This document shows positions 36,271 through 57,619 of a stretch of DNA of 64,000 nt, one piece after another; positions within the stretch are counted from its first letter, which is position 1; the number at the start of each line of letters is the position of its first letter. The notes under the pieces were generated by a model. The model was not told the origin of the DNA. It made no database searches and saw only the letters and a program-made list of their open reading frames with translations. The position numbers and the translations under genes were made by a program. This DNA comes from Croceivirga sp. (GTDB lineage Bacteria; Bacteroidota; Bacteroidia; Flavobacteriales; Flavobacteriaceae), in NCBI GenBank assembly GCA_028284665.1, contig JANQRG010000033.1, positions 186,001-250,000 on the forward strand. Reading direction: 5' to 3'.

Positions 36271-36317
36271 AAAAGGGGAATTAAAGAGTATGCTAAAATA
36301 AAAGATGGGCAAGAATT

Positions 36318-36527: not shown

Positions 36528-36646
36528 GGAGAAAGATTTGAGCAAAATAGTTTTTTAGCTCCACTCAAGAAAATTTATTCTGACGTTGCCTAGCAGAATC
36601 TGTAAATACAAAGCACTATTTTTATTGAATGGGTCTTTAAGAATAT

Positions 36647-36838
36647 ATGATGCTGGATCAAGCCGAGCAATGGAATAATCTTTGGCAAAACTGCACCTTT
36701 CTGACCCATCAAATTAAACTGGACAAAAAATTCAGTCTTTATGACCTGTACGATTTCTTTGTTGAGGTTGAATTAGACCCTTGCACGTATAAAATAGTTG
36801 GCAAGGGCTATTTTAAAACAGGTGAGACATATGGATAG
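36647..36838 (+). CDS. Small protein of unknown function
   Basis: 63 residues, start at one of two adjacent ATGs (36647 or 36650). The sequence (LWQNCTFLTHQIKLDKKFSLYDLYDFFVEVELDPCTYKIVGKGYFKTGE) looks folded rather than random, with two aromatic-rich helices, and codon use is coding-like. No family recognised. The pairing with the divergent 69-residue gene is close (119 bases) but I see no basis for calling a toxin-antitoxin pair. Confidence 0.45.
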   Translation: MMLDQAEQWNNLWQNCTFLTHQIKLDKKFSLYDLYDFFVEVELDPCTYKIVGKGYFKTGETYG

Positions 36839-37015
36839 ATTGGAATGAGCTAAACTAACGTTGGTCAATGATATGGAGTATGAAATTGGAAATCTGGATT
36901 CTTAACTTTTATCCAAAAATGGAATAGTCATTTTCATCTCAATTTTCCTGTTTTAGCATTATTCTGATGCTTTATAACTATTTTGAACAAGTAAGCTAGC
37001 GGTAATTACAACAAA

Positions 37016-37873: not shown

Positions 37874-38188
37874 TACCATTTACATTAATATTATTCTTTA
37901 AACTCATCCATAAATGGGTCGTTCTTTTGTCCAAGTGGCATTAGAACATGATACTACATACAATCGAAGCCGTAACGCAACAACCTAAACCACCGTGGTA
38001 AGTTTTTGCTTTTTGTCTTTTTTAGTTTAGCCATATTTGTCTATAATCAAATTTTGTTACTTTATACCTAAGGTCATATTACAATTTGGATTGTAGTGGT
38101 TTTAAGGGGTACTTACAGTTTCATTATAAAGCTAAAAACATTGGAAATGTTCAAAAACAACATTGATGAACTTTCTGATTGCTTTACG
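37874..38188. other. Gap of about 310 bases without a supported gene
   Basis: AT-rich; contains a short inverted repeat ACCACCGTGGT (around 37989) followed by a T-rich stretch, which might be a weak terminator. Nothing else recognised. Confidence 0.4.
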
Positions 38189-38220
38189 TTTGAAATAGTT
38201 ATTTGAACAGGCTATTTTTG
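38189..38220 (+). promoter_or_regulatory. Complete Bacteroidota-type promoter (TTTG, 20 bases, TATTTTTG)
   Basis: TTTG at 38189-38192 and TATTTTTG at 38213-38220 with a 20-base spacer. This is the best full promoter in the window. The -7 element ends seven bases before the ATG at 38228, so a leaderless message is likely. Confidence 0.65.
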
Positions 38221-38227
38221 GCTTTTG

Positions 38228-39947: not shown

Positions 39948-41483
39948 TTATCCCAACCATCCTTCCCGATCCAAACTGCGGTATTGTATAGCTTCCGAGA
40001 TATGGTGTCCTTGTAGCACTTCCTTTTGTTCCAGATCGGCAATAGTACGGGCGACTTTTAAGATTCGATCATAAGCCCTTGCGGAGAGATGTAAGCGTTC
40101 CATTGCGGTTTTTAGCAATTCTTTAGAACTGTCATCTAACCTGCAATATTTTCGGATCAGTCGGGTGCTCATTTGCGCATTGTAGTGGATCTTCTCTAAA
40201 TGCTCAAATCGATCGGTTTGGACCTCCCGGGCCATAATCACCCGATCCCGGATGGCCTTACTGCCCTCCCCTTTTCGGTCTTCAGATAGCTTTTCAAAGG
40301 GGACAGGGGTTACTTCGATATGAATATCAATGCGATCTAATAAAGGCCCCGAAATCTTCCCCAGATACCGCTGCATCTCGGTGGGGGATGTGGTCACAGG
40401 CGCATCGGGATCGTTAAAGTAGCCCCCCGGGCTGGGATTCATGCTGGCTACAAGCATAAAACTACTAGGATAGGTAACCGTAAATTTAGCACGAGAAATG
40501 GTTACTTCACGGTCCTCCAGAGGCTGCCGCATTACTTCAAGAACACTGCGCTTAAACTCCGGGAGTTCATCCAGGAACAATACCCCGTTATGGGCCAAAG
40601 AGATCTCCCCGGGTTGGGGATAGGTGCCCCCTCCTACCAAAGCCACATCGGAAATGGTGTGATGCGGGCTACGAAACGGACGCTGTGTCATTAAGCCGGA
40701 GTTGTTTACTTTCCCGACTACACTGTGGATCTTTGTGGTTTCCAGCGCTTCGTGTAAGGACATGGGCGGTAAAATGGAGGGCAACCGCTTTGCCAACATG
40801 GTTTTCCCCGCGCCGGGAGGGCCGATCAGGATAATATTATGACCTCCTGCGGCTGCAATTTCCATACACCGTTTGATACTTTCCTGGCCTTTAACATCGG
40901 AAAAATCGAATTCGGGAAAGTTGAGATTATTGTAAAACTCCTTTCGGGTATCTACCACGGTTGGCGCAATGGATTTGCCTTCGTTAAAAAAATCGATAAC
41001 CTCTTTAATAGTGTCTACCCCAAAGACCTTTAGTTTTCCGACCACTGCCGCCTCTTTTACATTTTCCTTAGGCAAAATAAAACCTTCAAAACCGTCTTTT
41101 TGGGCCTGGATGGCAATGGGTAACGCGCCTTTGATGGGTTGTACGGCACCATCCAGGGAGAGTTCGCCCATGATCAGGTAGTTATGGATCTCCGGAGCGG
41201 CTATTTGTTCGGAAGCAGCCAGAATTCCAAGAGCCAGGGTCAAATCATAGGCGGACCCTTCTTTACGCAGGTCGGCCGGTGCCATATTGATCGTAATTTT
41301 CTTTCCCGGAATTTTGTAGCCGTTGTTTTTTAAGGCAGCGGCTATTCTATAGTTGCTTTCCTTGATCGCATTATCCGGCAGCCCAACCAGATGGTAGCCA
41401 ATACCGCGGTCTACATTCACTTCTACCGGGATGGCTTGCGCTTCCACCCCAAAAACCGCACTTCCGAATACCTTAATGAGCAT
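39948..41483 (-). CDS. comM: ComM/YifB-family AAA ATPase (Mg chelatase-like)
   Basis: 511 residues. In naturally competent bacteria ComM is a hexameric helicase that promotes branch migration of incoming DNA. N-terminal lon-like fold ([53 protein letters not shown]), Walker [71 protein letters not shown], and the C-terminal helical domain ending in the usual [15 protein letters not shown]. Full length. Its 3' end is duplicated twice to the left, and a palindrome follows the stop. Confidence 0.93.
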
Positions 41484-41532: not shown

Positions 41533-43302
41533 CTATTCCACGGTAATCGACCAGGTCAGGGAAATCGGCTTCCCATAAGAGGTAAATCCATCGAGAAAAA
41601 CATCATAGTCTCCCCGAAGATCTGAAGTGAAAAACGTAAAATCCATCGAATTCCCTTCCACAACTACATGGGGCTCCCAAAACAGCACCGTACGGTAGTC
41701 CGGGATCCTTCCATAGGGATCATCTTCCTGGCCGTAATTTTGCCTGTAGTAGTTCTTTTTTGGTAAAGGTTTTGCAACGGTGGTCTTGATGGTATTGGGT
41801 TGTTGGTATTCGTCGTAATAGTTCCCATCAAAAGTTTCTACCGATAGGATCCCCTGGTATTCTTTACCAGCCAATTGAAACTGATCCTGTATGACCCGTA
41901 TCGCTTCGATTCTTCGGGCGTCAAATTCCTTTACCGTCTCGTGATTGGGTATAAACACCCCGTCAAACAGGACTATAGCCGGAAAATCGTTGTATTCTAT
42001 ATTGGATTTCTCAAAATCCTGAGCTACCCGAATGTAGTCGTTCCCATTGGGATTATTCCGGTACCCTGCATTATTCAGGATCTCTACCAAAGTTTCCTGG
42101 AAGGTGGCAAATCGTGTATACTCGTCCAATACAAAAGTTTCCGGAATACCCCCATCAAAAGGATCTATAGGGTCCCCAAGCAAAAGGGAATCCGGTTTTA
42201 GCGAAAAATATTGATTCTCTATTTGATTGTAAACACTTCGTTTTTGTATTGCGGCTTCCCATTCTTTCTGTAGTAAAAAATTGGTAAAGGTTAGGTCCGA
42301 AACGTCCAGCTTTTTTGGCGATCCCACTTGAATTTCGTACTCCTCCTCCCCTTCTGTTTGGATTACGGCCTGCGATAATTTATAGTCTTTGCGTAAATAC
42401 GTATAAAAATTACCTGCTTGATCTGTAGTCGCAAATTTTAATACAAACTCTTTCCCCGGAAGGGAAACTACGACCGGAAGATTTTGTGCGGGTTGTCCAC
42501 TGGATTTGTCTCGTACAGCACCAAAAAATAGTTCCCCACGCTGCTCTGGCAAAAACAGGCTGTCTCCTACACCAAGGGCAAGCTGTTTATCCACCTCCAA
42601 ATAGGCCTGCGCATATTTCATCGCATTCATGCCAAAACCTGAGCCCGCAATGCCCCGTTTTTTAACCTTTATGGTATATACGCCATTGCCGAGATAGCCT
42701 TTGTAGTTTTTGAGGGAAAAGTTAACCTTTTCCCTGGTGGTGTACGCTTCTTTTTCGAAAGCCAAATTTACCGTACTGGAATCTATGACTTGTTTTGTAT
42801 TGGACCCTTGTTGTGTTTCATTTGTCGCTGCGGTACCCCCCTCCGCCAACAAAGCAGATTGGTCCCCGAGATAAGGGTTAATGACCACAATATCTTCCTG
42901 AAAAACCTGGGTCAACCCGTTATTCTTCATCCACTGGGTGTAGCCCAACAGCTTGTAGTTCCCTGAAGGTAATTCAGTGTTTATAAAAAAGTCGCCCTGA
43001 CCCAAGCCCTGCTCCAACTTTATTTTTTGCTCTAGTATATATTCTTTTTGTTCATTGACGAGGGCCACATAGCCTACCTTGCTAATATTGCTCAATCGGC
43101 TGTTTTGTGCATTAAAGCAATAAAAACTGTAGTACAGATATTCCCCTGAAAAAACCAGGGGTCCGGTATGATTGAGATATACCTTTTCCTGGGGGAGTTG
43201 TTTCAGATTCTCGAGTTCTTCCCCGGTCTTGATGACGTATTGGGCAACTGTTGTGCCATAATGTAACACTGCAACAACTAAAAATATAATATACATTCTC
43301 AT
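41533..43302 (-). CDS. Exported MG2-domain protein with a plug-like segment but no barrel
   Basis: 589 residues. Signal peptide MRMYIIFLVVAVLHYGTTVAQ. An MG2/macroglobulin-type N-terminal domain follows (PQEKVYLNHTGPLVFSGEYLYYSFY, LSNISKVGYVALVNEQK, LPSGNYKLLGYTQWMKN), then a second beta domain, a region like the plug of TonB-dependent receptors (FPAIVLFDGVFIPNHETVKEF and RRIEAIRVIQDQFQ), and a closing Ig-like strand set (FTFFTSDLRGDYDVFLDGFTSYGKPISL). No barrel. It is the last gene of the DUF4249 operon. Start at ATG 43302; a longer reading overlaps the gene before it. Function unknown; surface or periplasmic location inferred. Confidence 0.75.
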   Translation of the reverse strand: MRMYIIFLVVAVLHYGTTVAQYVIKTGEELENLKQLPQEKVYLNHTGPLVFSGEYLYYSFYCFNAQNSRLSNISKVGYVALVNEQKEYILEQKIKLEQGLGQGDFFINTELPSGNYKLLGYTQWMKNNGLTQVFQEDIVVINPYLGDQSALLAEGGTAATNETQQGSNTKQVIDSSTVNLAFEKEAYTTREKVNFSLKNYKGYLGNGVYTIKVKKRGIAGSGFGMNAMKYAQAYLEVDKQLALGVGDSLFLPEQRGELFFGAVRDKSSGQPAQNLPVVVSLPGKEFVLKFATTDQAGNFYTYLRKDYKLSQAVIQTEGEEEYEIQVGSPKKLDVSDLTFTNFLLQKEWEAAIQKRSVYNQIENQYFSLKPDSLLLGDPIDPFDGGIPETFVLDEYTRFATFQETLVEILNNAGYRNNPNGNDYIRVAQDFEKSNIEYNDFPAIVLFDGVFIPNHETVKEFDARRIEAIRVIQDQFQLAGKEYQGILSVETFDGNYYDEYQQPNTIKTTVAKPLPKKNYYRQNYGQEDDPYGRIPDYRTVLFWEPHVVVEGNSMDFTFFTSDLRGDYDVFLDGFTSYGKPISLTWSITVE

Positions 43303-43313
43303 ATTCTTGATCT

Positions 43314-44600
43314 TTAATCTATCCAAAATTCAGGTACCACATTACTCCCCCAAACCCTGCAATCCCCACAAGGTTTAACAACATAAATATCAGGTCCCGG
43401 GCAGAGACCTATGTCAAGGGTATTCGGAGAATAATAGGTGATCATATCCAAGTCCACCTGTTCAATAACCGACTGCGGACAGTCGTCCATGACTTCACCG
43501 GTGAAGCAGAACGAAATATGCGATTCGGGGGAGGATCGCAAACTACAGTCAATAGGATACTCCGGTAGCGGCTCACCCGGAAACACGTCCTCAAAATTGA
43601 AGAAAAACCGTCGCTTTGATTGGGAGGCTACCTCAAAGAACCCTATCACCGTTCCCCCATTCCCCGAAGTGATGTTGCCCTCTAACAGACCCGGTTGTAC
43701 CTGGGAAAAAACACTTTCGTTCTGGCTAAAGTTGCGCAACAGTTCGTAAAAACCAAAAGCCTCCGGGCTTGTTGTAAGCTGTTGTATTTCAATGCTGTAT
43801 CGGTTAGCAATGATATAGTTCTCCTTGCTTATAAACCGTACCATAAAACGTTCCAGGTTATTGTCAGCTCCCAAACCCGTGTCATTCAGTACCACAGTAT
43901 TGGAGGCTTCCGTACGGAAACAGACCCGGGCTTCTTCTTCCCTTGGAATACGTTCGAGAGTGTAGGTGACAACAGGTAGTGCACAAGGATCGTAATCCGT
44001 AAGCAAATATTCATCCGGTACCCAGCGGGGCGCAACGATCTTATAGGTCTCGTCATAGGTAAATCGAATGTTCTGGGTATCCCCGTCCACCCTTTGGTTG
44101 TCAATAAAGATACCAACACCTTCCACCCCGGTACCTGAGACCGTCGGTTCGGCATAAATATTTTCCAGGGTAGCACTGCCTTCAATACGCATTTCATCCG
44201 AGCTAAACGCATCATTGTCGGTACTAATACGAAGGCGATATCCTATTCCGGGCTGGGCTGCAAATTGATTTACAGAAAGGTACCTGCCCGCTTCTGCCTC
44301 AACAAAATCGTAGGTAGTACCATTAGAATCCTCAATGGTCACCACTGCGTTTTCCTCATAGGGCACCAGATCCCGCTCAATATCTCTAGTGGGTAGAAAG
44401 GGATTGAAAATGGAATCTACTTCCAGATCCAAAACGGTGTCCAAACGACTAAGGGTAATCTCATGAAACTTCAGCTCATCGGTAAGCATAGCCTCAACCA
44501 CCAGAACATCCTGCGCTTCCGCATCGCTGGCGATCAACACCTCCACTTCCTCAACACAAGAAAGTAATGGCAAACCGAGTATTGCTATAATTCTATTCAT
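43314..44600 (-). CDS. DUF4249 lipoprotein, seventh in transcription order
   Basis: 428 residues. Lipoprotein signal MNRIIAILGLPLLSC, with acidic CVEEVEV after the lipidation cysteine, the kind of sequence that directs surface exposure in Bacteroidota. The DUF4249 body has VEAMLTDELKFHEITLSRLDT, RDLVPYEENAVVTIEDSNGTTYDF, RYLSVNQFAAQPGIGYRLRI, FTYDETYKI and a C-terminal Cys motif (PCGDCRVWGSNVVPEFW). Group III with copies 4-6. Start overlaps the end of copy 6 by 8 bases. Ligand unknown. Confidence 0.85.
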   Translation of the reverse strand: MNRIIAILGLPLLSCVEEVEVLIASDAEAQDVLVVEAMLTDELKFHEITLSRLDTVLDLEVDSIFNPFLPTRDIERDLVPYEENAVVTIEDSNGTTYDFVEAEAGRYLSVNQFAAQPGIGYRLRISTDNDAFSSDEMRIEGSATLENIYAEPTVSGTGVEGVGIFIDNQRVDGDTQNIRFTYDETYKIVAPRWVPDEYLLTDYDPCALPVVTYTLERIPREEEARVCFRTEASNTVVLNDTGLGADNNLERFMVRFISKENYIIANRYSIEIQQLTTSPEAFGFYELLRNFSQNESVFSQVQPGLLEGNITSGNGGTVIGFFEVASQSKRRFFFNFEDVFPGEPLPEYPIDCSLRSSPESHISFCFTGEVMDDCPQSVIEQVDLDMITYYSPNTLDIGLCPGPDIYVVKPCGDCRVWGSNVVPEFWID

Positions 44601-45891
44601 TTCCTTCCTCTATCCAAAATTCGGGTACAACATTGCTGCCCCATACTCTGCAATCGCCACATGGTTTCGAGACATATACATCTGGTCCCGGACAAACCCC
44701 GATTACGTTATCATTGCGGCCAACATAGGTAATCAAATCCAGGTCCACCTGTTCTATTACGGATTGGGGACAAACATTTCCAACCGTGGTGGGTAAACAG
44801 AACGAGACATGCGATTCCGGGGAAGATCGCAAACTACAATCAATAGGATAGTCCGGTAGCGGCTCCCCTGGAAATATGTCTTCAAAATTGAAGAAAAAAC
44901 GTTGCTTTGATTGGGAGGTTACCTCAAAAAACCCTATCACCGTACTTCCATTCCCCGAAGTGATATTACCTTCTAACAAACCGGGTTGTACCTGAGAAAA
45001 AACACTTTCGTTCTGGCTAAAGTTGCGCAATTGTTCGTAGAAACCAAAAGCTTCGGGGCTTGTTGTCAACTGCTGTATTTCTATGCTGTAACGGTTAGCA
45101 ATGATATAGTTCTCTTTACTTATAAACCGTACCATAAAACGTTCCAGATTATCGTTAGCTCCCAAACCTGTATCATTTAGTATTACTGTATTGGAGGCTT
45201 CCGTACGGAAACAGACCCTGGCTTCTTCTTCCCTTGGATTACGTTCCAGGTTGTAAATGACCTCCGGCAGTGCACACGGATCGTATTCGGTAAGTAAGTA
45301 TTCCCGTTCCACCCATCGGGGTGCAATGATCTTGTAGGTCTCATCATAGGTGAATCGAATGTTCCGGGTATCCCCATCAACCCTTTGGTTGTCGATAAAG
45401 ATCCCAACGCCTTCCTCCCCGGTACCGGAGACCGTCCGCTCAGCATAAACATTTTCCAGGGTGGCACTGCCTTCAATACGCATTTCATAAGAGGTAAAAG
45501 CATCTCCGTTGGCACTAATGTGAAGGCGATAGCCCGTTCCCGGCTGGGCCGCAAATTGATTTGCAGAAAGGTACCTACCTGCCTCCGCCTCCACAAAATC
45601 GTAGGTAGTACCATTAGAATCCTCAATGGTCACTACTGCGTTTTCCTCATAAGGCACCAGATCCCGCTCAATATCCCGAACGGGCACAAAGGGATTAAAA
45701 ATAGAATCCACTCCCAAATCCATTATAGTGTCTAAACGACTAAGGGTAATCTCATGAAACTTCAGCTCATCCGTCAACATGGCCTCTACAATCAAAACCT
45801 CCTGCATTTCCGCATCACTGGCGATCAATACATCCACCTCCTCTACGCACGAAAGGATGGGGAATACAAGAAATAGTATACTTCTCTTCAT
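44593..45891 (-). CDS. DUF4249 lipoprotein, sixth in transcription order
   Basis: 432 residues. Lipobox in MKRSILFLVFPILSC, then CVEEVDV. The body is very close to copy 5, but the stretch before the C-terminal motif (ITYVGRNDNVIGVCPGPDVYVSKPCGDC) resembles copy 4 instead of copies 5 and 7 (ITYYSLNTLDIG...), so it is a mosaic. Starts one base after the stop of copy 5. Group III. Confidence 0.85.
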   Translation of the reverse strand: MKRSILFLVFPILSCVEEVDVLIASDAEMQEVLIVEAMLTDELKFHEITLSRLDTIMDLGVDSIFNPFVPVRDIERDLVPYEENAVVTIEDSNGTTYDFVEAEAGRYLSANQFAAQPGTGYRLHISANGDAFTSYEMRIEGSATLENVYAERTVSGTGEEGVGIFIDNQRVDGDTRNIRFTYDETYKIIAPRWVEREYLLTEYDPCALPEVIYNLERNPREEEARVCFRTEASNTVILNDTGLGANDNLERFMVRFISKENYIIANRYSIEIQQLTTSPEAFGFYEQLRNFSQNESVFSQVQPGLLEGNITSGNGSTVIGFFEVTSQSKQRFFFNFEDIFPGEPLPDYPIDCSLRSSPESHVSFCLPTTVGNVCPQSVIEQVDLDLITYVGRNDNVIGVCPGPDVYVSKPCGDCRVWGSNVVPEFWIEEGNE

Positions 45892-45892
45892 T

Positions 45893-47182
45893 TTACTCTT
45901 CAATCCAAAATTCAGGTACTACATTACTCCCCCAAACCCTACAATCACCGCAAGGTTTGGTAACGTAAATATCCGGTCCCGGACAGACACCAATGTCAAG
46001 GGTATTCAGCGAATAATAGGTGATCAAATCCAGGTCTACCTGTTCAATAACCGACTGCGGACAAGTGCCACCAACCGTGCCAGTAAAACAGAACGAGACA
46101 TGCGATTCCGGGGAAGATCGCAAACTACAATCAATAGGGTAGTCCGGTAGCGGCTCACCGGGAAAGACATCTTCAAAATTGAAGAAAAACCGTCGCTTTG
46201 AGTGGGAGGCTACCTCAAAAAACCCTATCACAGTTCCTCCATTCCCTGAAATGATATTGCCCTCTAGCAAGCCCGGTTGCACCTGGGAAAAAACACTTTC
46301 ATTCTGGCTAAAGTTGCGCAGCTGCTCATAGAAACCAAAAGCCTCAGGACTTGTTGTCAGTTGTTGTATTTCAATGCTGTACCGGTTGGCAATGATATAG
46401 TTCTCTTTACTTATGAACCGTACCATAAAACGTTCCAGGTTATCATTAGCTCCCAAACCTGTATCATTCAGTATTACAGTATTAGAGGCTTCCGTACGGA
46501 AACAGACCCGGGCTTCTTCTTCTCTTGGAATACGCTCCAGGTTATAGGTAACCACCGGTAGCGCACAAGGGTCATAGTCCGTAAGTAAATATTCATCTTC
46601 TACCCACCGGGGTGCAATGATCTTATAGGTCTCATCATAGGTGAATCGGATATTCCGGGTATCTCCATCAACCCTTTGGTTGTCGATAAAGATACCAACA
46701 CCTTCCCTCCCGGAACTCGAGACCGTCCGCTCAAAATAAACATTTTCCAGGGTGGCACTGCCTTCAATACGCATTTCATCAGAACTAAACGCATCATTGT
46801 TGGTGCTAATGCGAAGGCGATAGCCCGTTCCGGGTTGCGCCGCAAATTGATTTACAGAAAGATACCGACCTGCCTCCGCCTCCACAAAATCGTAGGTAGT
46901 ACCATTGGAATCCTCAATGGTCACTACCGCGTTTTCTTCATAAGGCACCAGATCCCGCTCAATATCCCGAACGGGCACAAAGGGATTAAAAATAGAATCC
47001 ACTCCCAAATCCATTATGGTGTCTAAACGACTAAGTGTAATCTCATGAAATTTCAACTCATCCGTCAGTGTGGCCTCTACGACCAGAACCTCCTGCATTT
47101 CCGCATCGCTGCCGATCAAAACATCTACTTCCTCTACACAGGAAAGCAAAAGAAATACAAAAAAAACTACAATTCGCTTCAT
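45893..47182 (-). CDS. DUF4249 lipoprotein, fifth in transcription order
   Basis: 429 residues from ATG 47182 (lipobox MKRIVVFFVFLLLSC, CVEEVDV). A longer reading to 47263 would overlap copy 4 by 80 bases and is rejected. The body and C-terminal motif match the other group III members; the tail is of the type ITYYSLNTLDIGVCPGPDIYVTKPCGDC shared with copy 7. Starts two bases from the stop of copy 4. Confidence 0.85.
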   Translation of the reverse strand: MKRIVVFFVFLLLSCVEEVDVLIGSDAEMQEVLVVEATLTDELKFHEITLSRLDTIMDLGVDSIFNPFVPVRDIERDLVPYEENAVVTIEDSNGTTYDFVEAEAGRYLSVNQFAAQPGTGYRLRISTNNDAFSSDEMRIEGSATLENVYFERTVSSSGREGVGIFIDNQRVDGDTRNIRFTYDETYKIIAPRWVEDEYLLTDYDPCALPVVTYNLERIPREEEARVCFRTEASNTVILNDTGLGANDNLERFMVRFISKENYIIANRYSIEIQQLTTSPEAFGFYEQLRNFSQNESVFSQVQPGLLEGNIISGNGGTVIGFFEVASHSKRRFFFNFEDVFPGEPLPDYPIDCSLRSSPESHVSFCFTGTVGGTCPQSVIEQVDLDLITYYSLNTLDIGVCPGPDIYVTKPCGDCRVWGSNVVPEFWIEE

Positions 47183-47183
47183 A

Positions 47184-48473
47184 TTACTCTTCAATCCAAA
47201 ATTCAGGGACCACATTAGTGCCCCATACACGGCAATCCCCACAAGGTTTCGAAACATATACATCCGGTCCCGGACAGCTGCCTATCTCATTGTCATTACG
47301 GCCCACATAGGCTATTAAATCCAGGTCCAATTGTTCAATTACAGATAGCGGACAGCTGCCACCGCCCAAGCCGGGAAAACAGAACGAGACATGCGATTCC
47401 GGGGAAGACTGCAGATTACAGTTGATGGGATATTCCGGTAAAGGTTCACCTGGAAACACTTCCTCAAAATTGAAGAAAAAACGTTCCCTGGAAATTGAGG
47501 CAACCTCAAAAAATCCAATTGTACTACCGCCGCTCAATGCGGTTATATTCCCTTCTAAAAATCCGGGCTGTACCGCAGAAAAGACACTTTCATTCTGACT
47601 AAAGTTTCGTAATTGTTCGTAAAAGCCAAATGCTTCCGGGCTGGTAACAAGTTGCTGTACTTCGATGCTATACCGGTTGGCTATGGTGTAGTCTTCCTTG
47701 CTAATAAAACGGACCCTAAAGCGTTCCAAATCGTTATCTCCCAAACCTGTGTCATTTAGGATTACCGTATTGGAGGATTCCGTGCGAAAACAGACTCGTG
47801 CTTCTTCTTCACGCGGCACACGTTCCAGATTATAGGTAACCACCGGTAGCGCACAAGGATCATAATCGGTAAGTACGTATTCCAGTTGTACCCATCGAGG
47901 CGCGATGATCTTATAGGTCTCATCGTAAGTAAATCGTAGGTTCCCGGTGTCTCCCTGTATACTTTGATTGTCAATAAATATACCCACTCCTTCAACCCCA
48001 GTGTCCGAAATTGTGCGTTCCGCAGTTATATTGTCTATTGTAGCTTCACCTTCTATCTGCATTTCTTCAGAAACAAATTCAGCACCATCGCTGGTCCTTA
48101 CACGTAAGCGGTATCCTATTCCGGGCTGGGCTGCAAATTGGTTTACAGACAGGTACCTGCCCGCCTCTGCCTCAACAAAATCGTAAGTAGCATTATTGGA
48201 ATCCTCGATGGTCACAACCGCATTTTCTTCCCAGGATACCAGGTCACGATTAATGATCCTGTTAGGAACAAAAGGATTAAATACGGAATCGATTTCCAAA
48301 TCCGTTATGGTATCTAATCGACTAAGAAGTACTTCATGAAAATCAGGTTCATCCGTGAGCATTGCCTGCACCACCAAGACATCTTGTGTTTCTGTACTAC
48401 CACTAATAAATAGCTCTACTTCCTCTACACAGGAAAGCAAAAGAAATACCAGAAATACTGCAATTCGTTTCAT
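47184..48473 (-). CDS. DUF4249 lipoprotein, fourth in transcription order
   Basis: 429 residues, lipobox MKRIAVFLVFLLLSC, then CVEEVELFISG. The most divergent of group III: it has VLLSRLDTITDLEIDSVFNPFVPNRIINRDLVSWEENAVVTI, and several substitutions elsewhere, for example QLEYVLTDYDPCALP. C-terminal motif PCGDCRVWGTNVVPEFW. Start one base after the stop of copy 3. Likely the oldest member or founder of group III, an inference from divergence alone. Confidence 0.85.
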   Translation of the reverse strand: MKRIAVFLVFLLLSCVEEVELFISGSTETQDVLVVQAMLTDEPDFHEVLLSRLDTITDLEIDSVFNPFVPNRIINRDLVSWEENAVVTIEDSNNATYDFVEAEAGRYLSVNQFAAQPGIGYRLRVRTSDGAEFVSEEMQIEGEATIDNITAERTISDTGVEGVGIFIDNQSIQGDTGNLRFTYDETYKIIAPRWVQLEYVLTDYDPCALPVVTYNLERVPREEEARVCFRTESSNTVILNDTGLGDNDLERFRVRFISKEDYTIANRYSIEVQQLVTSPEAFGFYEQLRNFSQNESVFSAVQPGFLEGNITALSGGSTIGFFEVASISRERFFFNFEEVFPGEPLPEYPINCNLQSSPESHVSFCFPGLGGGSCPLSVIEQLDLDLIAYVGRNDNEIGSCPGPDVYVSKPCGDCRVWGTNVVPEFWIEE

Positions 48474-48474
48474 A

Positions 48475-49728
48475 TCACTCCTCTGTCCAAAATTCAGGTA
48501 CTACGTTACTTCCTAGTTCCGTGCAATCCCCGCAGGCTCTGGCCCATGTAAAATACGGCCGGTTACCATTTCCAGCATTGGTATCGGCATAGGCGATAAC
48601 GCCTGCCAAAATTGCTTCTATCAAAGGGGATTCGCAATCCCCGTCACAAACACCAAAGCTCGCACAATGGTAGCCTCTGGAATACAAGGGTGGATTACCT
48701 GGGGTTTCACAAGTAATAGGATATGGCGGTAGAGGTTCATCAGGAAAGAGATCTGCATAATTAAAGTACAGACGTTGTTCCGTAACTGCGGCTACCTCAA
48801 AATAACCCAATACCCCTTCTTCTTCACTTTCGGCAGAAATATTACCCTCCAACAAGCCGGGTTGTACTTGCGAAAAGAGACTTTCTGAAGAAGCAAAGTC
48901 ATTCAAACGTTCATAAAACGAATGGGCGTCAACCGTTTGAGAGAACTGTTTGACGTTAATACTGTACCTATGCGACATGATATAGTTTTCTCGTGAGATA
49001 AACCGAATTTCTTTATTCCGTATCTCGTTATTCATGAGATCTTCAGTAGAGGCCTGGATGATTTGCGTGGAAGCAGCAGACGAAAAGCAGACCCGTCGTT
49101 CCTCTTGTCTTGCCACGATAGCAACTTCATAAAGCCTGTCCGTGCATGGTTCATAGTACACCACCTCAAAATCAAATGGATCCCAACGTGGGGCAATAAT
49201 CTTATAGGTTTCCTCATATTCAAACCGAAAAAAGGTCGGTTCTGCGGTAACAGAAGCATTATCCAAATAAATGCCTACCCCTTCCTGACCCTGATCACTG
49301 GTTACCCGAGTAGCACGCATCGCTGTTATAGGTACAGGTTGTGGAAGTGGTGTCGATTCAGAGCTGTAGTTCTTGCCCCCGGCTGTAGTAATTTGGAGCG
49401 TATAGGCCCGCCCAGGCTGGGCGGTGAACTCCGAATCCGAGAAGTATAGGCCCGGTTCCGTCTCGGTAAAGGCATACACTACCCCTTGATCATCCCTAAT
49501 GCCTACAGTAGCACCCGATTCCGAGATGGGATCTTCATCTTCAAAGCGAGATGTTCTATTCAATACTACCTGATGTCGTTTTAGTTCATCGGTAAGTCGG
49601 GCATCCACCACCAAAATGCTTTCAAACTCCCGGGTTTCTGCTTCAAATTGTTCAACGCAGGCATACAAGAGCAAGCCCGGCAGAACTCCTGTTATCCAAT
49701 ACTTCTTTTTCATTTTTCGCTTTCTCAT
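48475..49728 (-). CDS. DUF4249 lipoprotein, third in transcription order
   Basis: 417 residues from ATG 49728 (alternative ATG 49713). Signal ends LLYAC, then CVEQFEAETREFESILVVDARLTDELKRHQ. Group II with copy 2: shares HAFSFYERLNDFASSESLFSQVQPGLLEGN-type segments and ALFADEPLPPYPITC-type ends only within the pair. The C-terminal motif is RACGDCTELGSNVVPEFW. An upstream GGTAGGAG is a plausible ribosome binding site. Confidence 0.85.
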   Translation of the reverse strand: MRKRKMKKKYWITGVLPGLLLYACVEQFEAETREFESILVVDARLTDELKRHQVVLNRTSRFEDEDPISESGATVGIRDDQGVVYAFTETEPGLYFSDSEFTAQPGRAYTLQITTAGGKNYSSESTPLPQPVPITAMRATRVTSDQGQEGVGIYLDNASVTAEPTFFRFEYEETYKIIAPRWDPFDFEVVYYEPCTDRLYEVAIVARQEERRVCFSSAASTQIIQASTEDLMNNEIRNKEIRFISRENYIMSHRYSINVKQFSQTVDAHSFYERLNDFASSESLFSQVQPGLLEGNISAESEEEGVLGYFEVAAVTEQRLYFNYADLFPDEPLPPYPITCETPGNPPLYSRGYHCASFGVCDGDCESPLIEAILAGVIAYADTNAGNGNRPYFTWARACGDCTELGSNVVPEFWTEE

Positions 49729-49736
49729 ACTCCTAC

Positions 49737-50993
49737 CTATTCTTCCCAAAATTCAGGGACCACATTACTGCCTAATTCCCTACAATCGCCACAAGCCCTG
49801 GCCCAGGTAAAAAAGGGTTGATTAAAACTACCTTCGTTCGTTGCCGCATATGAGATCAGACCTGCCAAAATCTGCTCTATTAATGGAGATTCACAGTCCG
49901 CATCACAATCAAGATACGCCCCACATTGATAGCCCTCCGAATACAAGCGTGGATTGCCCGGAGTGTCACAACTAGCAGGATACGGTGGTAAGGGTTCATC
50001 CGGGAACAAATCCGCATAATTAAAATAAAGACGCTGTTCCGTAACTGCAGCTACTTCAAAGTACCCTAATACCGCTTCCCCTTCTCTTTCGGAGGTGATA
50101 TTCCCTTCCAATAAGCCAGGCTGTACCTGGGAAAACAGGCTCTCAGAAGAGGCAAAGTCATTCAAACGCTCATAGAAGGAATGGGCATCCACCGTTTGGG
50201 AATACTGCTTTACATTAATACTGTATCGATGGGACATAATATAGTTTTCCCGTGATATAAACCGAATTTCTTTATTCCGGATCTCGTTATTTACCTGGTC
50301 TGCGGTAGAGGCCTGGATGATTTGTTTAGAAACCGCGGACGAAAAACAAACCTGCTGCTCTTCCTGCTTTGCCCTTATGGCAACTTCATATGGGATGGTA
50401 TCACAGGCAACGTAATGCACCACTTCAAAATCAAAAGGATCCCATCGCGGGGCAATGATCTTGTAGGTTTCCTCATATTCAAACCGGAAAAAGGTGGGTT
50501 CTGGCGTTGGCGAAGTATTATCCAAATAGATCCCTACCCCTTCCTGACCTCGATCACCGGTCACCCGTGTGGCACGCATAGCGGTAATGGGTATGTTTAG
50601 AGGAAGAGCAGTGGCCTCGGATTGATAGTTAGCGCCGCCGGAAGTGGTAATGCCCAAGGTATAGGTTCTTCCCGTCTGGGCTGCAAATTCCAAATTGGAG
50701 GAATATATTCCAGGTCCGGTTTCAGTAAAACCGTAGGTTGTTCCCTGATCATCTATAATGTTCACTTCCGCACTCGACTCGGGAATTGGATCGACATCCT
50801 CAAAACCAAATGTTCGATTTAACAGCATCTGATGTCGCTTCAGTTCATCGGTAAGTCGGGCATCCACTACCAAAATACTTTCAAACTCCTGGGTTTCCGC
50901 TTCAAATTGTTCTACACAGGAATACAAGAGCAATCCCAGCAGACCTGCCGCTACCCCATGAATTGTTTGTATTCTTTTCCTTTTCATACCCAT
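49737..50993 (-). CDS. DUF4249 lipoprotein, second in transcription order
   Basis: 418 residues from ATG 50993 (alternative ATG 50987). Signal ends LLYSC, then CVEQFEAETQEFESILVVDARLTDELKRHQ. Very close to copy 3 over the body (RFISRENYIMSHRYSINVKQ, ESLFSQVQPGLLEGN), with a different loop near the end (YLDCDADCESPLIEQILAGLISYAATNEG). C-terminal motif RACGDCRELGSNVVPEFW. Three bases from copy 1. Confidence 0.85.
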   Translation of the reverse strand: MGMKRKRIQTIHGVAAGLLGLLLYSCVEQFEAETQEFESILVVDARLTDELKRHQMLLNRTFGFEDVDPIPESSAEVNIIDDQGTTYGFTETGPGIYSSNLEFAAQTGRTYTLGITTSGGANYQSEATALPLNIPITAMRATRVTGDRGQEGVGIYLDNTSPTPEPTFFRFEYEETYKIIAPRWDPFDFEVVHYVACDTIPYEVAIRAKQEEQQVCFSSAVSKQIIQASTADQVNNEIRNKEIRFISRENYIMSHRYSINVKQYSQTVDAHSFYERLNDFASSESLFSQVQPGLLEGNITSEREGEAVLGYFEVAAVTEQRLYFNYADLFPDEPLPPYPASCDTPGNPRLYSEGYQCGAYLDCDADCESPLIEQILAGLISYAATNEGSFNQPFFTWARACGDCRELGSNVVPEFWEE

Positions 50994-50995
50994 AG

Positions 50996-52288
50996 CTATT
51001 CCTCCCAAAAATCCGGTGGCACAATACTACCAAACCGCCTACAGTCCCCACAACCTGAGGGTAGCACTAAATAAGGTGCCGCTCCTCCAAGACCTTCGGT
51101 TTGCAACCATTCTTCGTAATCCGGGTTTTCCGCATGATAATCATACAATCCTGCCAGGATACCTTCGATCAGGGGCGAATTCCCGTTACCATCAATCACA
51201 AAACTACCATCCCCTGCGGGTGTAAAATGAAAGCCTTCCGGGTATAATGGTGGCGCACCAACTCTACAGCTTATGATATATGGCGGCAAGGGCTCTCCAG
51301 GGAAATGATCCTCATAATTAAAGTAAAATCGCTTTTCTGTATACGTACTCAATTCAAAGTAACCCAATAGTAAGTCCTCTTCCCGATTCGAGCGGATGTT
51401 ACTTTCTAATAGGCCCGGTTGTACATTACTAAAAACGTTGTCAAAACTGCTAAAGTCCTCTAGCGCGGTGAAGAAAGAATTCGCATTTACCGAGTGATGG
51501 TATTGCTTTACAAGAATACTATATCTGTGCGCGATGAAGTAGTTGTCCTTACTCAAAAAGCGCAGTTCAAAATCCTTAATTCCGGAAAAAGAAGACCCCT
51601 CGCTGGAGGCCAGTAGTATTTCGTCGGAAAGATTGGACGCAAAGCATACTCTTGCTTGTTCATCCCTGGCCTTTAGGGTTACTTCCCACCCATCCCCGTC
51701 GTTGATATCGTAATCGATTTCGTCCCACTCAAAAGGATTATATTCCGGTGCAATAATCTTATAGGTTTCTTCGTATTCGTAACGAAAGAATTCAGGTTGC
51801 CCGGATGAAGCTTCAGTATTCAAAACAATGGCCACCCCATCCAGTCCTGTATTGTTTGTTCTTCGTATTGCCTTAATTTCCGCTATCCCCAACTGCTCCG
51901 GTAATCTTTCAAAATCGGAAGTGTATGTAGTACCATTGGTTGTGATAATTTGAAGTTGATAGCGCTCCTGATGCGAAAGCTGCAAAGGGGAGGCACTGGT
52001 GTACGCGCCTGGTTCACCTTCCTCAAATCTAACAGCCGAACCGGCTTCATTGACAATCCTAACTTCGGCATTTTGTTCCGGATTGGGTATTTCGCTTTCA
52101 AACTCGAAAGTCCTGGATAAATAAATGGTTTGCTCCTTTATTTCATCGGTTAACCGGGCATCCACCACTAAAACACTTTGAAAATCCAGGGTTTCTGCTC
52201 CAAACTCTTCAACACACGAAATCAGCATAGAGAAGGAACATAGCACCGCCAGTCCTGCAAACCGTGGTTTTAGTTTTCTCTTTTTCAT
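50996..52288 (-). CDS. DUF4249 lipoprotein, first in transcription order
   Basis: 430 residues. Signal MKKRKLKPRFAGLAVLCSFSMLISC, then CVEEFGAETLDFQSVLVVDARLTDEIKEQ. Alone in group I, it stands between groups II and III in sequence character. C-terminal motif SGCGDCRRFGSIVPPDFW. It begins 17 bases after the TonB-dependent receptor ends and is the copy nearest to it. In other Bacteroidota such lipoproteins commonly lie next to a TonB-dependent receptor, and a partner role is inferred from that. Confidence 0.87.
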   Translation of the reverse strand: MKKRKLKPRFAGLAVLCSFSMLISCVEEFGAETLDFQSVLVVDARLTDEIKEQTIYLSRTFEFESEIPNPEQNAEVRIVNEAGSAVRFEEGEPGAYTSASPLQLSHQERYQLQIITTNGTTYTSDFERLPEQLGIAEIKAIRRTNNTGLDGVAIVLNTEASSGQPEFFRYEYEETYKIIAPEYNPFEWDEIDYDINDGDGWEVTLKARDEQARVCFASNLSDEILLASSEGSSFSGIKDFELRFLSKDNYFIAHRYSILVKQYHHSVNANSFFTALEDFSSFDNVFSNVQPGLLESNIRSNREEDLLLGYFELSTYTEKRFYFNYEDHFPGEPLPPYIISCRVGAPPLYPEGFHFTPAGDGSFVIDGNGNSPLIEGILAGLYDYHAENPDYEEWLQTEGLGGAAPYLVLPSGCGDCRRFGSIVPPDFWEE

Positions 52289-52305
52289 AGCTACTACTTC
52301 GGTCC

Positions 52306-55116
52306 TTAAAACTTAAAATTGTACGTAATGGAAGGAACAGGGATGGCAAAAATGGAACTCTGCAATGCCCGGACCTCCCCTCCTTCGGTCACAAAAAACA
52401 CGGAAAAGGGATTGTTACGCCCTAACACGTTATATACTGATATGGTCCAAAAACTATGGGCCAATTTGTTCTTTCTATGGTTTCCTTCAATGTTTATTCC
52501 GAGGTCCAGCCGGTAGAAATCCGGAATCCGGAATGCATTTCTATCACTAAAGGCTACAAAATCCGCATTGTTAAATCGGAAGGTTCCTATAGGATAGGTA
52601 ACCGGTCTTCCGGTTTGATACACAAAATTGGCAGAAAAACTATAGCGCTTGGTAAGCCTATAGTTGGCAATTAGACTGATGTCGTGCGGCTTATCAAAAT
52701 TGGAGGGAAAGAACTCTCCATTATTGATCCGCTCCTCGCTAAACTCACTATCAAAGCGATACAGTGATCGGGCATAGGTGTACCCCAACCATCCGTTGAG
52801 TTTCCCGCGATTCTTTTTTATCAAAAACTCAACCCCATAGGCCTTTCCATCCCCTTGCAACACCTCGGTTTCTACATTTTCATTTAACAGCAGGTCGGCA
52901 CCGGTCTTGAAATCCAACACATTGTCCATCCTTTTGTAATATCCTTCCAGGCTTACCTCAAACATGTCATCATTAAAATTTTTATAGAACCCTAAAGCCG
53001 CCTGATACCCTGTTTGGGGTTCGATATTTAAATCGGATAGCTTCCAGGTATCTATTGGAGAAACCGTGGTATTGTTCGTTAAGGTATGCACAAATTGATA
53101 CGCGTTATTAAAACTTGCTTTCACCGAGAAATCCGGGGCTAGAAGATATCGAGCTGCTACCCGCACCTCCGGTCCTCCATAGGTCTCAATGACTTCTCCA
53201 CTGTTGTAACTGATAGTATCTTGAACAGTAGCTTCGTTTCTGGGTTGTCCATCAAAATAGGTGCGTTGTGTGCCACTTCCCAGGGCTGCAAAAAAGGCGT
53301 ATCGCAAACCCAAATCCACCTTAAGCCTATCCGTAACTGTTATTTCATCTCCTATGAATATGGCGCCTTCTACAGCCTGTTCCTCATCAATAAATATGGG
53401 CGCCACATCCGAATCGCCACCCATAGGTTCAATACTTCCCGGATTTACAGAATAGAGCTTAGAGGTAATTCCATAATCGAGGCTGTGCTTCTCATTAAGT
53501 ACTGTACTAAGCTTGTATTTTATTTCAGTTTCATTAATGCTATAGTTGAGGTCAAAGTCCGTATTGGCCTGACCATCAAAATCAATACCAAATCGATAAT
53601 CGCTATTGGCTAACAGTAAGGCACCGCTGGTTTTCTCGTTAAATCGGTGGTTCCAACGGATAGAAGCCAATCTGTTGGTGTAGTTGTACAAAGAGTCTGA
53701 GGTAATACTGAAATCGTCACGGCTAAAATAGGCGGTTGCTTTGAGCTCGTTATTTTCATTAAAGCGGTGGTGGTACTTCACAATCCCGTCAAAAAACGAG
53801 GCCTCACTGTTGCTAAGGTCTTCATCATCAAGGGAACGCAGTATCCAATCGGCATAAGCACCACGACCTCCAATGACCAGAGAAGAGGTATCTTTTTTTA
53901 TGGGGATCTCTAAAGCCAGATTTCCTGTGACCGGCCCAATAGAACCTTCGCCGGAAAACTCCTTTTCGTTCCCGTTTTTGGTACGGATGTCAAAAACGGA
54001 TGAGAGTCGCCCACCGAACTCCACGGGAACACTTCCTTTGTAGATATCGGCCCCTTCCGTGGTAAACGGGTTTAAGGCCTGAAAAATCCCAAAAAAGTGG
54101 GTGGGGTTGTAGATGACCGCATCATCCAGCAGGACCAAATTCTGGTCGGTTTTCCCTCCCCTAACGTTAATGCCGGTAGCCCCTTCACCAGCGGACGAAA
54201 TTCCAGGGAGTGCCTTCGCCACCTGAAGCAGATCACGCTCTCCTAACACCAAGGGAATGTTTTTACTTTCTTCCAAATCGATGGTTTCCGTGCCTGTGCC
54301 AACATCTTCCACCTTATCCACTGCGTCACCTTCCAGCACCACTTCTTCCAGTTGTTCCAAACCTTCTTCCAATGTAAAATCCAGTTCCCCGTCGTTATAC
54401 ATGATCACTTCCCGGTCAGAATCTGCAATGCCCAAGGCACGGGTCGATAATCTGTGATAACCGGGAGTCAATTGCATCGTGAATTCCCCATTTTCATCAG
54501 TAATTACCAAAGTATTGGTGCGTTGGATCCGAATGGCAAGATCCGGAATAGGCTCACCCGTCCTGCTATTGATCGCTTTTCCCGATAGTCGATAAGAGGA
54601 TCTTGAGGAATTCGGATCCGTTTTGCCTATTCTTACCAGGGGATATTTCCTGGGGGTAGCCGCTACATTTTCAGATAAAAACACGGGAGGAGGCCTGGTT
54701 CCAATGACGCTAGTGGGTTGTTGCGTTAGTACCGAATCGTTCCGGCCAAAAAAACCTTCGGGTAATGCGTCATAGACTACGGTATTCCGCAAAACAATGA
54801 CCCGGTTTTCTTCTTCCAGAACATAATAATTGAATTCCGTATTGCTAAAAAGCTGATCCAAGGCTTCAGAGAGGGTAGCACCCGTAATATCAACACTTAC
54901 CACTTTGTCGGCCAACCAGTCCGATTCAAAGAAAAACTGGTACCCGACGGATTCTTCAATGGCCAAAAGCGCATCTTCCAGGGGAATATCGTTCAGTTGT
55001 AATTCAACAGTTTTCTCTTGACCCCAGGAAGGGATTACGGTTAATAACAATAACAGGGATGACACTATGCGAATGGATACGCATAGCGGGACACTTACAA
55101 ATCGTTTGATTGGCAT
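52306..55116 (-). CDS. TonB-dependent receptor with STN and carboxypeptidase-regulatory-like domains
   Basis: 936 residues. Signal peptide to about 32 (LLTVIPSWGQ), an STN domain (about 35-90, VELQLNDIPLEDALLAIEESVGYQFFFESDWL... ), a linker, a carboxypeptidase regulatory-like domain (about 175-250, LSGKAINSRTGEPIPDLAIRI), a plug (about 280-400, IPLVLGERDLLQVAKALPGISSAGEGATGINVRGG), and a 22-strand barrel ending in VPSITYNFKF. It imports or exports a large ligand through the outer membrane using the proton motive force; the STN domain points to a signalling or anchoring role at the N-terminus. No sigma/anti-sigma pair is next to it. First gene of the nine-gene operon. Confidence 0.93.
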   Translation of the reverse strand: MPIKRFVSVPLCVSIRIVSSLLLLLTVIPSWGQEKTVELQLNDIPLEDALLAIEESVGYQFFFESDWLADKVVSVDITGATLSEALDQLFSNTEFNYYVLEEENRVIVLRNTVVYDALPEGFFGRNDSVLTQQPTSVIGTRPPPVFLSENVAATPRKYPLVRIGKTDPNSSRSSYRLSGKAINSRTGEPIPDLAIRIQRTNTLVITDENGEFTMQLTPGYHRLSTRALGIADSDREVIMYNDGELDFTLEEGLEQLEEVVLEGDAVDKVEDVGTGTETIDLEESKNIPLVLGERDLLQVAKALPGISSAGEGATGINVRGGKTDQNLVLLDDAVIYNPTHFFGIFQALNPFTTEGADIYKGSVPVEFGGRLSSVFDIRTKNGNEKEFSGEGSIGPVTGNLALEIPIKKDTSSLVIGGRGAYADWILRSLDDEDLSNSEASFFDGIVKYHHRFNENNELKATAYFSRDDFSITSDSLYNYTNRLASIRWNHRFNEKTSGALLLANSDYRFGIDFDGQANTDFDLNYSINETEIKYKLSTVLNEKHSLDYGITSKLYSVNPGSIEPMGGDSDVAPIFIDEEQAVEGAIFIGDEITVTDRLKVDLGLRYAFFAALGSGTQRTYFDGQPRNEATVQDTISYNSGEVIETYGGPEVRVAARYLLAPDFSVKASFNNAYQFVHTLTNNTTVSPIDTWKLSDLNIEPQTGYQAALGFYKNFNDDMFEVSLEGYYKRMDNVLDFKTGADLLLNENVETEVLQGDGKAYGVEFLIKKNRGKLNGWLGYTYARSLYRFDSEFSEERINNGEFFPSNFDKPHDISLIANYRLTKRYSFSANFVYQTGRPVTYPIGTFRFNNADFVAFSDRNAFRIPDFYRLDLGINIEGNHRKNKLAHSFWTISVYNVLGRNNPFSVFFVTEGGEVRALQSSIFAIPVPSITYNFKF

Positions 55117-55222: not shown

Positions 55223-57619
55223 TTAATTTTTGGGTATAAAAATTAAAAGATTCTCAGAAGTATTGCGGATTTCGGAGGGGTTCATCATCATTTTTCTGTA
55301 TTCTCCCTTGACGTACATTTCAGCCTGATCCCTGTAATGTTTGCTCAAGGGATTTCCCGATTGTCCCGTGGGTAAAATACTGATACTATTCTCTATGTCC
55401 GAAAAGTCGATGATCCTTCGGGTTGAAGGGATACTTCTTACTTTATAGCGCCCATTGTCTTGTCTACTAAATTCCTGGTTGTTCAACGTACCTCCGGTGC
55501 CCGGGCTTGGAAAGGGGCCCACATTAAAAAAGCTTCTCAAGGAGGCTACTCTACCAATGGGGTGGTCATGTTCCAGGAAATGCACTTTATCCCAGGTCCA
55601 GGTTAAAAAATCGTTCCCGAACTGTTCGGTCAGGTCTTGCCAGGTAGCATTGAAAGCCTGCCGTATGATTTCAGTTTTGCTTTCTTTTACATCGGGGGTA
55701 GTGACATTGTCCCACCAGACGGAAGCAGGATTGTCGAATACCTTATTCATCTTAAGAGGCACCCCATACGACCGGTACTCTTCCGGAGAGGAAAACTCAT
55801 CTGCAAAAATATGTTGATGCAGCTTTGCCTCCATGCTTTCAAAAAATACCCCGCCAACGCTGTTAAGGTGATATTCTCCATCCCAATCTCTCAGTAAAGC
55901 GACAAATTCCTGTTGATTTTCCGAGAGGGACCCTTGATCCAAATTATCCAACCAACCGTTTAACTGCTTGGTTGCGGTCCGAAGATATACGTCATTGGCC
56001 ATTGTGGTCATATCTTCCTTTGTCCATCCATCCTTCTTTTTTTCCAGGAGGTCTACGATCCTACCCGCGCGATACGTTGAATTTGCAAAATAGCCCGGAA
56101 CATAATGTCCGGCAATGGAGTCCGGTTGATTATTGGCGGAGTACACATAATTCCAGGACGGATTTACGCAATGCGGATTGTTTTCAAAATCCAGATAGGC
56201 TATGGGATCTTCTTTACCGGAAGCCCCATCCAAAATGGTTTTGGTCCCTATACCTTCCGGCATTTGATACAACTTTGCCGTACCCCACCAGCCAATATTC
56301 CCCTCAGCATCACCGTACATAACATTTAGCCCGGGAGCATGAATTTTAGGCAGCGCCTTTTTAAATTCCTCAATGTTATCCGCATGGTTGATTTCGAAAA
56401 GCCCCTGTAACAAGGTATTGTCAAATTGTGTGAAGAGCCAATGCATACTTACCAATCGCTCCCCCTCTACTCTGGTACGCTTTGCATAATTTGCATTCAC
56501 TATGGGTCCTCTATGTGTTTTTCTAAATTGAAAATCTACAGTTGTCCCACCTTTCACACCAATATCCTTTTTCACGTATTCGAATTTTCGCCATTCCGTT
56601 CCATAACGGTATAATGTAGTGTCCGTAGGATGTGTTTCTTCGTAGTAAAAGTTAGTGTCATCATTGGCTAACATGGTAAAACCATGTGCCATTTTTCTAT
56701 CGTGAGAAAGCAGCGGAAAGGGCACTCCGGCCAGGTAATACCCATATTTTTCATATTCCGGGGTCACCAGATGGGCTTCATACCAGACGCTGGGCTGGGC
56801 CTGGGCTATATGAGGATCGTTTTCTAACAATACTTGTCCACTCTTGGTTTTGGCAGGCGCCAAAACCCAGCTGTTACTACCATAAAAAACCGGTACTGGT
56901 AATTCCTCCATGATCTGCGAGATTTTTTTCTCCAAATCCAAGGTTTCATCATATCCGACGCGGTTGTTTGTGGGGATGGTAATCTCTTTTGAGGGTCTCT
57001 CGGTAAATAGCTCTTTGGTATATGTGGAGTCTAGCCTGTGCAATAAATTGGTATTTACAATGTCCCGAGCCCCCTTATTAAAAGTAAAGCCCATATAGGC
57101 GACCGCATTGAATACATCTTTTAGTTCAAAAGGTTGTTTTTCCAGGCCGGTTAGATAAAACTCAACCGGGGTAGGCCCTTCTGCTATAAACTGATTAATC
57201 CCATCCAGATAGGCCTGTGTTAAAACTATTTCGGGATTTGAGGCGGTTGCCCTCGATACCGCCTTTTCATTATGATCATCTATTCCCAAGGAAAGGAAAA
57301 ACTTATCCGTCTCCAGGGCAATTTCACCAAATACTTCGGAAAGTCGTCCTGCTCCAGCCCTTCGCAAAAGTTCCATTTGCCATAATCTGTCTTGTGCATG
57401 GACGTATCCCAGGGTTCGAATTGCATCGGTTTCGTTCGCAGAATAAATATGTGGGATACCATAGGGGTCAAAATAGACCTCTACTTCATCGGAGAGTGAA
57501 CGTAATTCTTTTTCCCCTTCATAGGTTGGGGTAAGGGTATTCAAAAAAATAAGAGCGGCTACCAGTACTAGTGCTACTATTCCCAGCAGGATAAGTAACA
57601 CCTTTTTTAGTTTTCTCAT
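55223..57619 (-). CDS. Penicillin acylase-family N-terminal nucleophile hydrolase
   Basis: 798 residues. An N-terminal membrane/signal segment (VLLILLGIVALVLVAALIFL) leads into VEVYFDPYGIPHIYSANETDAIRTLGYVHAQDRLWQME, the conserved start of the family. The precursor is cleaved before Ser248 (FYGSNSWVLAPAKTKSGQVLLENDPHIA), which becomes the nucleophile of the beta chain. Other landmarks: HDRKMAHGFTMLANDDTNFYYEE and THRGPIVN. Members hydrolyse amides such as N-acyl homoserine lactones or beta-lactam side chains; the substrate here cannot be assigned. Single gene, upstream of the TonB receptor in the same direction. Confidence 0.93.
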   Translation of the reverse strand: MRKLKKVLLILLGIVALVLVAALIFLNTLTPTYEGEKELRSLSDEVEVYFDPYGIPHIYSANETDAIRTLGYVHAQDRLWQMELLRRAGAGRLSEVFGEIALETDKFFLSLGIDDHNEKAVSRATASNPEIVLTQAYLDGINQFIAEGPTPVEFYLTGLEKQPFELKDVFNAVAYMGFTFNKGARDIVNTNLLHRLDSTYTKELFTERPSKEITIPTNNRVGYDETLDLEKKISQIMEELPVPVFYGSNSWVLAPAKTKSGQVLLENDPHIAQAQPSVWYEAHLVTPEYEKYGYYLAGVPFPLLSHDRKMAHGFTMLANDDTNFYYEETHPTDTTLYRYGTEWRKFEYVKKDIGVKGGTTVDFQFRKTHRGPIVNANYAKRTRVEGERLVSMHWLFTQFDNTLLQGLFEINHADNIEEFKKALPKIHAPGLNVMYGDAEGNIGWWGTAKLYQMPEGIGTKTILDGASGKEDPIAYLDFENNPHCVNPSWNYVYSANNQPDSIAGHYVPGYFANSTYRAGRIVDLLEKKKDGWTKEDMTTMANDVYLRTATKQLNGWLDNLDQGSLSENQQEFVALLRDWDGEYHLNSVGGVFFESMEAKLHQHIFADEFSSPEEYRSYGVPLKMNKVFDNPASVWWDNVTTPDVKESKTEIIRQAFNATWQDLTEQFGNDFLTWTWDKVHFLEHDHPIGRVASLRSFFNVGPFPSPGTGGTLNNQEFSRQDNGRYKVRSIPSTRRIIDFSDIENSISILPTGQSGNPLSKHYRDQAEMYVKGEYRKMMMNPSEIRNTSENLLIFIPKN

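Follow-up and report, generated by a model that had tools for sequence, protein, structure and literature searches.

A TonB-dependent receptor gene followed by an array of seven intact DUF4249 lipoprotein genes was found in a 64,000-nucleotide stretch of a Croceivirga genome, hereafter the window. The array is genuine; its genes are intact and maintained, and its size is labile over evolution. Arrays of such size recur in related genera, so the one described here is a large example of a recurring pattern and not a singular case. On the minus strand, the receptor gene is followed by the DUF4249 block (43314-52288) and then by the gene of a 597-aa end protein, and the ORF listing agreed with the coordinates and gene order given in the first-pass annotation. 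The features of the locus are, in the direction of reading:

55223..57619, minus strand, penicillin-amidase family gene, marker of the chromosomal slot (PF01804, E 1.7e-199)
52306..55116, minus strand, TonB-dependent receptor, 936 aa (Pfam)
50996..52288, minus strand, DUF4249 lipoprotein D1 (PF14054, E 3.8e-31)
49737..51008, minus strand, DUF4249 lipoprotein D2 (PF14054, E 3.8e-39)
48475..49749, minus strand, DUF4249 lipoprotein D3 (PF14054, E 1.7e-41)
47184..48473, minus strand, DUF4249 lipoprotein D4 (PF14054, E 7.2e-33)
45893..47263, minus strand, DUF4249 lipoprotein D5 (PF14054, E 1e-29)
44593..45903, minus strand, DUF4249 lipoprotein D6 (PF14054, E 7.3e-30; mosaic sites in D4-D7)
43314..44600, minus strand, DUF4249 lipoprotein D7 (PF14054, E 1.2e-30)
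41533..43326, minus strand, macroglobulin-domain-like (MG) protein, end of the cassette (MG2 at E≤1 in 29 of 49 aligned members; Foldseek)
39948..41483, minus strand, Mg-chelatase-like gene, which we take to be comM/yifB, downstream border of the slot (PF01078, E 4.4e-94)

Counted between ORFs taken from their first start, the gaps from the receptor to the end gene are 17, -13, -13, 1, -80, -11, -8 and -13 bases. With the ATG closest to the preceding stop codon, picked by eye (an internal ATG for D5), the six gaps between the DUF4249 genes become 2, 8, 1, 1, 1 and -8, and the spacing of -8 to +8 bases initially reported holds between these genes. D5 likely starts at this internal ATG, 81 bases into the ORF, as judged from its alignment with the start of D4. 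Three ORFs (251, 285 and 547 aa) lie on the plus strand of the window at 35515-39868, with no Pfam match at E≤0.001.

All seven genes, as first proposed, belong to the DUF4249 family: PF14054 matched every copy at E 1.7e-41 to 1e-29 (104-143 bits, versus a curated cut-off of 28.5 bits). It was the sole family reported, and none of the seven matched the SusD Pfam models at E≤0.001. Protein identity is 85-90% among D5-D7, 76-78% between D4 and D5-D7, and 76% for D2-D3, versus 38-47% between the three groups D1, D2-D3 and D4-D7, which are the groups of one, two and four members recognised at the outset. Misassembly of identical reads is unlikely, because the copies are ~75-86% identical in DNA within groups and dS among D4-D7 is 0.6-1.7. 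The genome has 14 PF14054 matches in total, seven of them in the array. A lone DUF4249 gene of the array subfamily is present elsewhere in this genome (L034:4559-5806) and another in a genome of the same genus (L037:6856-8091); no receptor or MG gene was recognised in either fetched stretch.

Each of the printed N termini of D1-D7 has a lipobox cysteine with at least two acidic residues in the next six, a criterion for surface lipoproteins which follows a figure legend of PMC12578637, a source available in part, and all seven thus probably carry a surface-export signal. Among 201 copies from the window and related loci, 196 have a lipobox-like cysteine, the remaining 5 being unscored. At least two acidic residues follow in 158 of the 196 scored copies, and 38 fail the criterion. 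A C-terminal CxxC...P...W motif is kept in 194 of the 196; in the window it takes the form of a nearly invariant CGDC...P.FW tail, common to all seven copies, which may form a disulphide, bind metal or touch the receptor. Invariant residues in 81 aligned copies include C15, C228, C352, C411, D413, C414, G418, P423 and W426. D4 was predicted to be mostly beta, in a model with mean pLDDT 88.4. Residues 32-339 of this model align with Ig/FN3-like chains, and a further C-terminal module lies beyond.

The receptor, 53-78% identical to seven relatives, matched Plug (PF07715) at 34.8 bits versus a cut-off of 23.9. CarbopepD_reg_2 and CarboxypepD_reg were also over their cut-offs, and STN was below. 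Its long C-terminal region is presumed to be the barrel; no barrel family of Pfam matched there at E≤0.001. Membership of the SusC/RagA subfamily (TIGR04056) was rejected, with 34.5 bits over residues 182-350 versus an NCBIfam cut-off of 368.25. The end protein begins with a signal-peptide-like segment, without a lipobox as read by eye. By itself it gave no Pfam match; among 49 aligned members, MG2 was matched at E≤1 in 29 (best 1.6e-4) and Plug, weakly, in 3. Its predicted model (mean pLDDT 86.0) retrieved complement and alpha-2-macroglobulin chains with Foldseek at E 5.7e-13, but with a low TM-score of 0.23.

A receptor-alignment scan of genome contigs yielded 499 relatives, of which the best 80 were fetched; this sample is made of the loci nearest to the window's receptor and is not random. 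In 80/80 of these best loci the receptor has at least one same-strand DUF4249 gene as a neighbour, and the MG gene is within the cassette in 73 of the 80, in one locus (L099) between the receptor and the DUF4249 gene. The 73 loci distribute as follows: one copy in 27, two in 16, three in 12, four in 9, five in 2, six in 3, seven in 2 and eight in 2. The earlier statement that one or two copies are usual is therefore roughly right, as it applies to 43/73 loci in this sample, and the size of the window's array is indeed uncommon but not unique, two other loci having seven copies and two having eight. One five-copy locus made mostly of fragments, L079 of Maribacter halichondriae (DUF4249 frames of 176, 232, 439, 222 and 159 aa downstream of position 12757, from decay or sequencing error), was dropped from later counts. 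The 72 complete loci left, free of broken copies, have 1 to 8 DUF4249 copies, with numbers differing between close relatives.

Whole-genome Pfam searches confirmed these sizes, with eight consecutive matches each for L101 and L117 and seven each for L118 and L098. The L101 genome has three more DUF4249 genes (G546:C2:973631-978881), ~6-11 kb past its array of eight. In 149 genomes of the family Flavobacteriaceae, to which the relatives belong, representing 149 genera, the longest run outside the window was three among the matches listed; in one of these three-copy runs a fourth copy occurs ~2 kb further on, again among the matches listed. Within the genus, for which 11 Croceivirga genomes were compared, the same block has one copy in L035, two in L026 and three in L024. 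L024 (1464-15744) has two complete receptor-DUF4249-MG cassettes, one after the other, at the window's slot; the second has one copy, and the window's receptor groups with the receptor of this second cassette. In a fourth genome of the genus, contig ends interrupt the block: L025/L039 carry the receptor with one full and one partial copy, and L032 has three copies, one of them partial, together with the MG gene; the gene order suggests an array of at least four copies if these contigs adjoin.

The position of the array on the chromosome is also recurrent. A penicillin-amidase gene stands at most two genes upstream of the array in 29 loci, with dsbD or tilS upstream in 28 of them and comM after the MG gene in 21. 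Five of the eight loci without comM (L098, L100, L101, L117 and L118) are large arrays whose fetched sequences end at most one gene past the MG gene. The window has the same arrangement. All eight loci with at least five intact copies occupy this penicillin-amidase/dsbD/tilS slot, as do five one-copy loci. It is possible, although we regard it as doubtful, that the slot tilS-dsbD-penicillin amidase-[array]-comM is a diversification site of the Flavobacteriaceae, where the array would repeatedly expand, from a single copy up to eight, while recombination homogenised the receptor-facing scaffold and a C-terminal module diverged to change specificity.

Trees were built by quick searches under a simple model, with midpoint rooting. 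In the tree of 201 copies, the nearest relative belonged to the same locus for 32 of the 170 copies from multi-copy loci, and to another genome for 138. Because own-locus nearest relatives are so few, much of the copy diversity predates the species. Where nearest neighbours did come from the same array, they were adjacent genes in 26/29 cases, versus 12.8 expected (counting arrays with at least three copies, and leaving out L024, L025 and L032). D2-D3 and D4-D7 form fully supported, window-specific sets of two and four rows. The nearest rows of D1 are first copies of other genomes, the closest being L025_D1, and of the 27 rows in the clade holding D1-D3, 17 are first copies, 7 are middle copies, 2 are single and 1 is a last copy. 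In the 86-row receptor tree, at least six state changes are needed to account for arrays of six or more copies, and close relatives differ in copy number (one supported group has 7, 3 and 4; another example is 8 and 7); the window, with 7 copies, is near loci with 1 and 3. The window-specific sets, the adjacency and the range of 1 to 8 copies in relatives support the stepwise local duplication proposed earlier.

The window's copies are under purifying selection: dN/dS is 0.09-0.13 among D4-D7, where dS reaches 0.6-1.7, and 0.10 for D2/D3. These low values give no sign of strong positive selection. The parsimony-informative sites of D4-D7, sorted by the three possible pairings, are clustered, with 50 adjacent sites supporting the same pairing versus 29.7 expected, a value reached in 0/10,000 shuffles. 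This clustering is also seen with the 47 synonymous sites alone (23 versus 15.0, p 0.011), and points to D4-D7 being mosaics, produced by exchange of segments between copies.

The regions in which copies differ were compared between 35 same-locus pairs (24 loci) and 399 cross-genome pairs in a matched identity range. Differences of same-locus pairs were shifted to residues 196-225 and 346-420 (D4 numbering). In a split-sample analysis of phylogenetically related units, the held-out excess was 4.6 percentage points, and 1.7% of 300 permutations of the labels gave as much. The fraction of differences falling in 346-405 had a median of 0.19 in other arrays (range 0.12-0.43), versus 0.16 across genomes. 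The excess is small and uneven, and the regional signal is tentative because the hotspots of the window itself (residues 16-30, 121-150, 361-375 and 391-405) showed no enrichment in 23 other arrays (p 0.69).

The reading we favour, and which we consider rather probable, is that of one transporter with seven surface lipoproteins capturing and passing on a ligand, assisted by the MG protein, the copies duplicating and recombining to broaden capture. We infer that the array is transcribed as an operon, that its lipoproteins are at the surface and in physical partnership with the receptor, and that they capture ligands and are diversified for this. In this view the operon would have the genes of a single TonB-dependent transporter, of seven lipoproteins that are paralogous and exposed at the surface, and of one MG-domain accessory protein, and the lipoproteins would capture the ligand and hand it over to the one transporter. 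What the lipoproteins share, a conserved scaffold and the CGDC...P.FW tail at the C terminus, presumably provides a common contact, e.g. for receptor docking. The remaining parts differ, so that several binding proteins, alternative or co-resident, might serve one receptor. Copy number would rise and fall through tandem duplication, with recombination swapping segments between copies. Diversified ligand capture, already put forward in the first-pass annotation, is compatible with purifying retention and with the modest excess in two segments; the window's hotspots, not reproduced in the 23 other arrays, speak against it.

An effect of dosage, all copies doing the same job and supplying more lipoprotein per receptor, would agree with the strong purifying selection, and the mosaic pattern of D4-D7 is what exchange keeping copies alike would leave. 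Against it, three classes of 38-47% identity are retained side by side, and distinct types persist, as the closest relative of most copies lies in another genome; we consider this explanation unlikely. The copies could instead be different subunits of a large surface assembly on the receptor, comparable to multi-lipoprotein utilisomes. That class follows position, 17 of the 27 rows of the D1-D3 clade being first copies, and that genes are packed almost without intergenic space would fit such a hetero-oligomer, but a machine of fixed stoichiometry is hardly expected to vary among close relatives as the group with 7, 3 and 4 copies does, and we find it somewhat improbable as well.

Variation of the surface to escape phage, predator or immune recognition is much less likely. 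It would profit from mosaic copies and a labile copy number, but dN/dS is ~0.1 and every copy is intact and on one strand, and phage escape, evoked earlier, is unsupported by anything found. We give least credit to a neutral tandem duplication in transit: copy number is labile and one locus, L079, holds broken-up copies, but all seven copies of the window are full-length, with D4-D7 at dS 0.6-1.7 and dN/dS ~0.1.

The proposed capture by several lipoproteins for one transporter can be set against known systems. The SusCD-type systems differ in that the window's partners are tandem paralogs of one family, PF14054 and not SusD. RagB is SusD-like. It is described as a 4-TPR lid in the available part of PMC11817032, whereas the D4 model is mostly beta. 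SusCD, the utilisomes and BtuB-BtuG, as described in the accessible portions of PMC7782687, PMC7618045 and PMC10404256, combine a TonB barrel with surface lipoproteins, as the window's array would. In Bacteroides thetaiotaomicron, many surface lipoproteins are complexed with TonB transporters (available part of PMC12578637). In the same species, as far as the accessible text of PMC11003636 goes, the receptor BT2172 and the DUF4249 protein BT2173 are encoded in a conserved operon, disruption of either has similar consequences, and a DUF4249 gene almost always adjoins receptors of the BT2172 subfamily. A DUF4249 gene is directly beside the receptor there as here, but that text describes one DUF4249 partner, whereas the window has seven copies and an MG-domain gene. 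Cassettes of Flagellimonas/Allomuricauda, Maribacter, Aquimarina, Robiginitalea and others share the receptor, the DUF4249 genes (1-8) and the MG gene, and differ in copy number and class content; Flagellimonas hymeniacidonis, a cultured relative, has eight copies. The pairing of DUF4249 with a TonB receptor is thus already published. The multi-copy pattern was not found described in the literature searched, of which parts were available and most subscription journals lay outside, so that an earlier account may exist.

DUF4249 is still a domain of unknown function in Pfam. With 1 to 8 natural paralogs per receptor, these loci offer a direct route to the ligand and to the docking part of DUF4249, and the series of arrays could show whether interchangeable binding proteins serve one TonB transporter.
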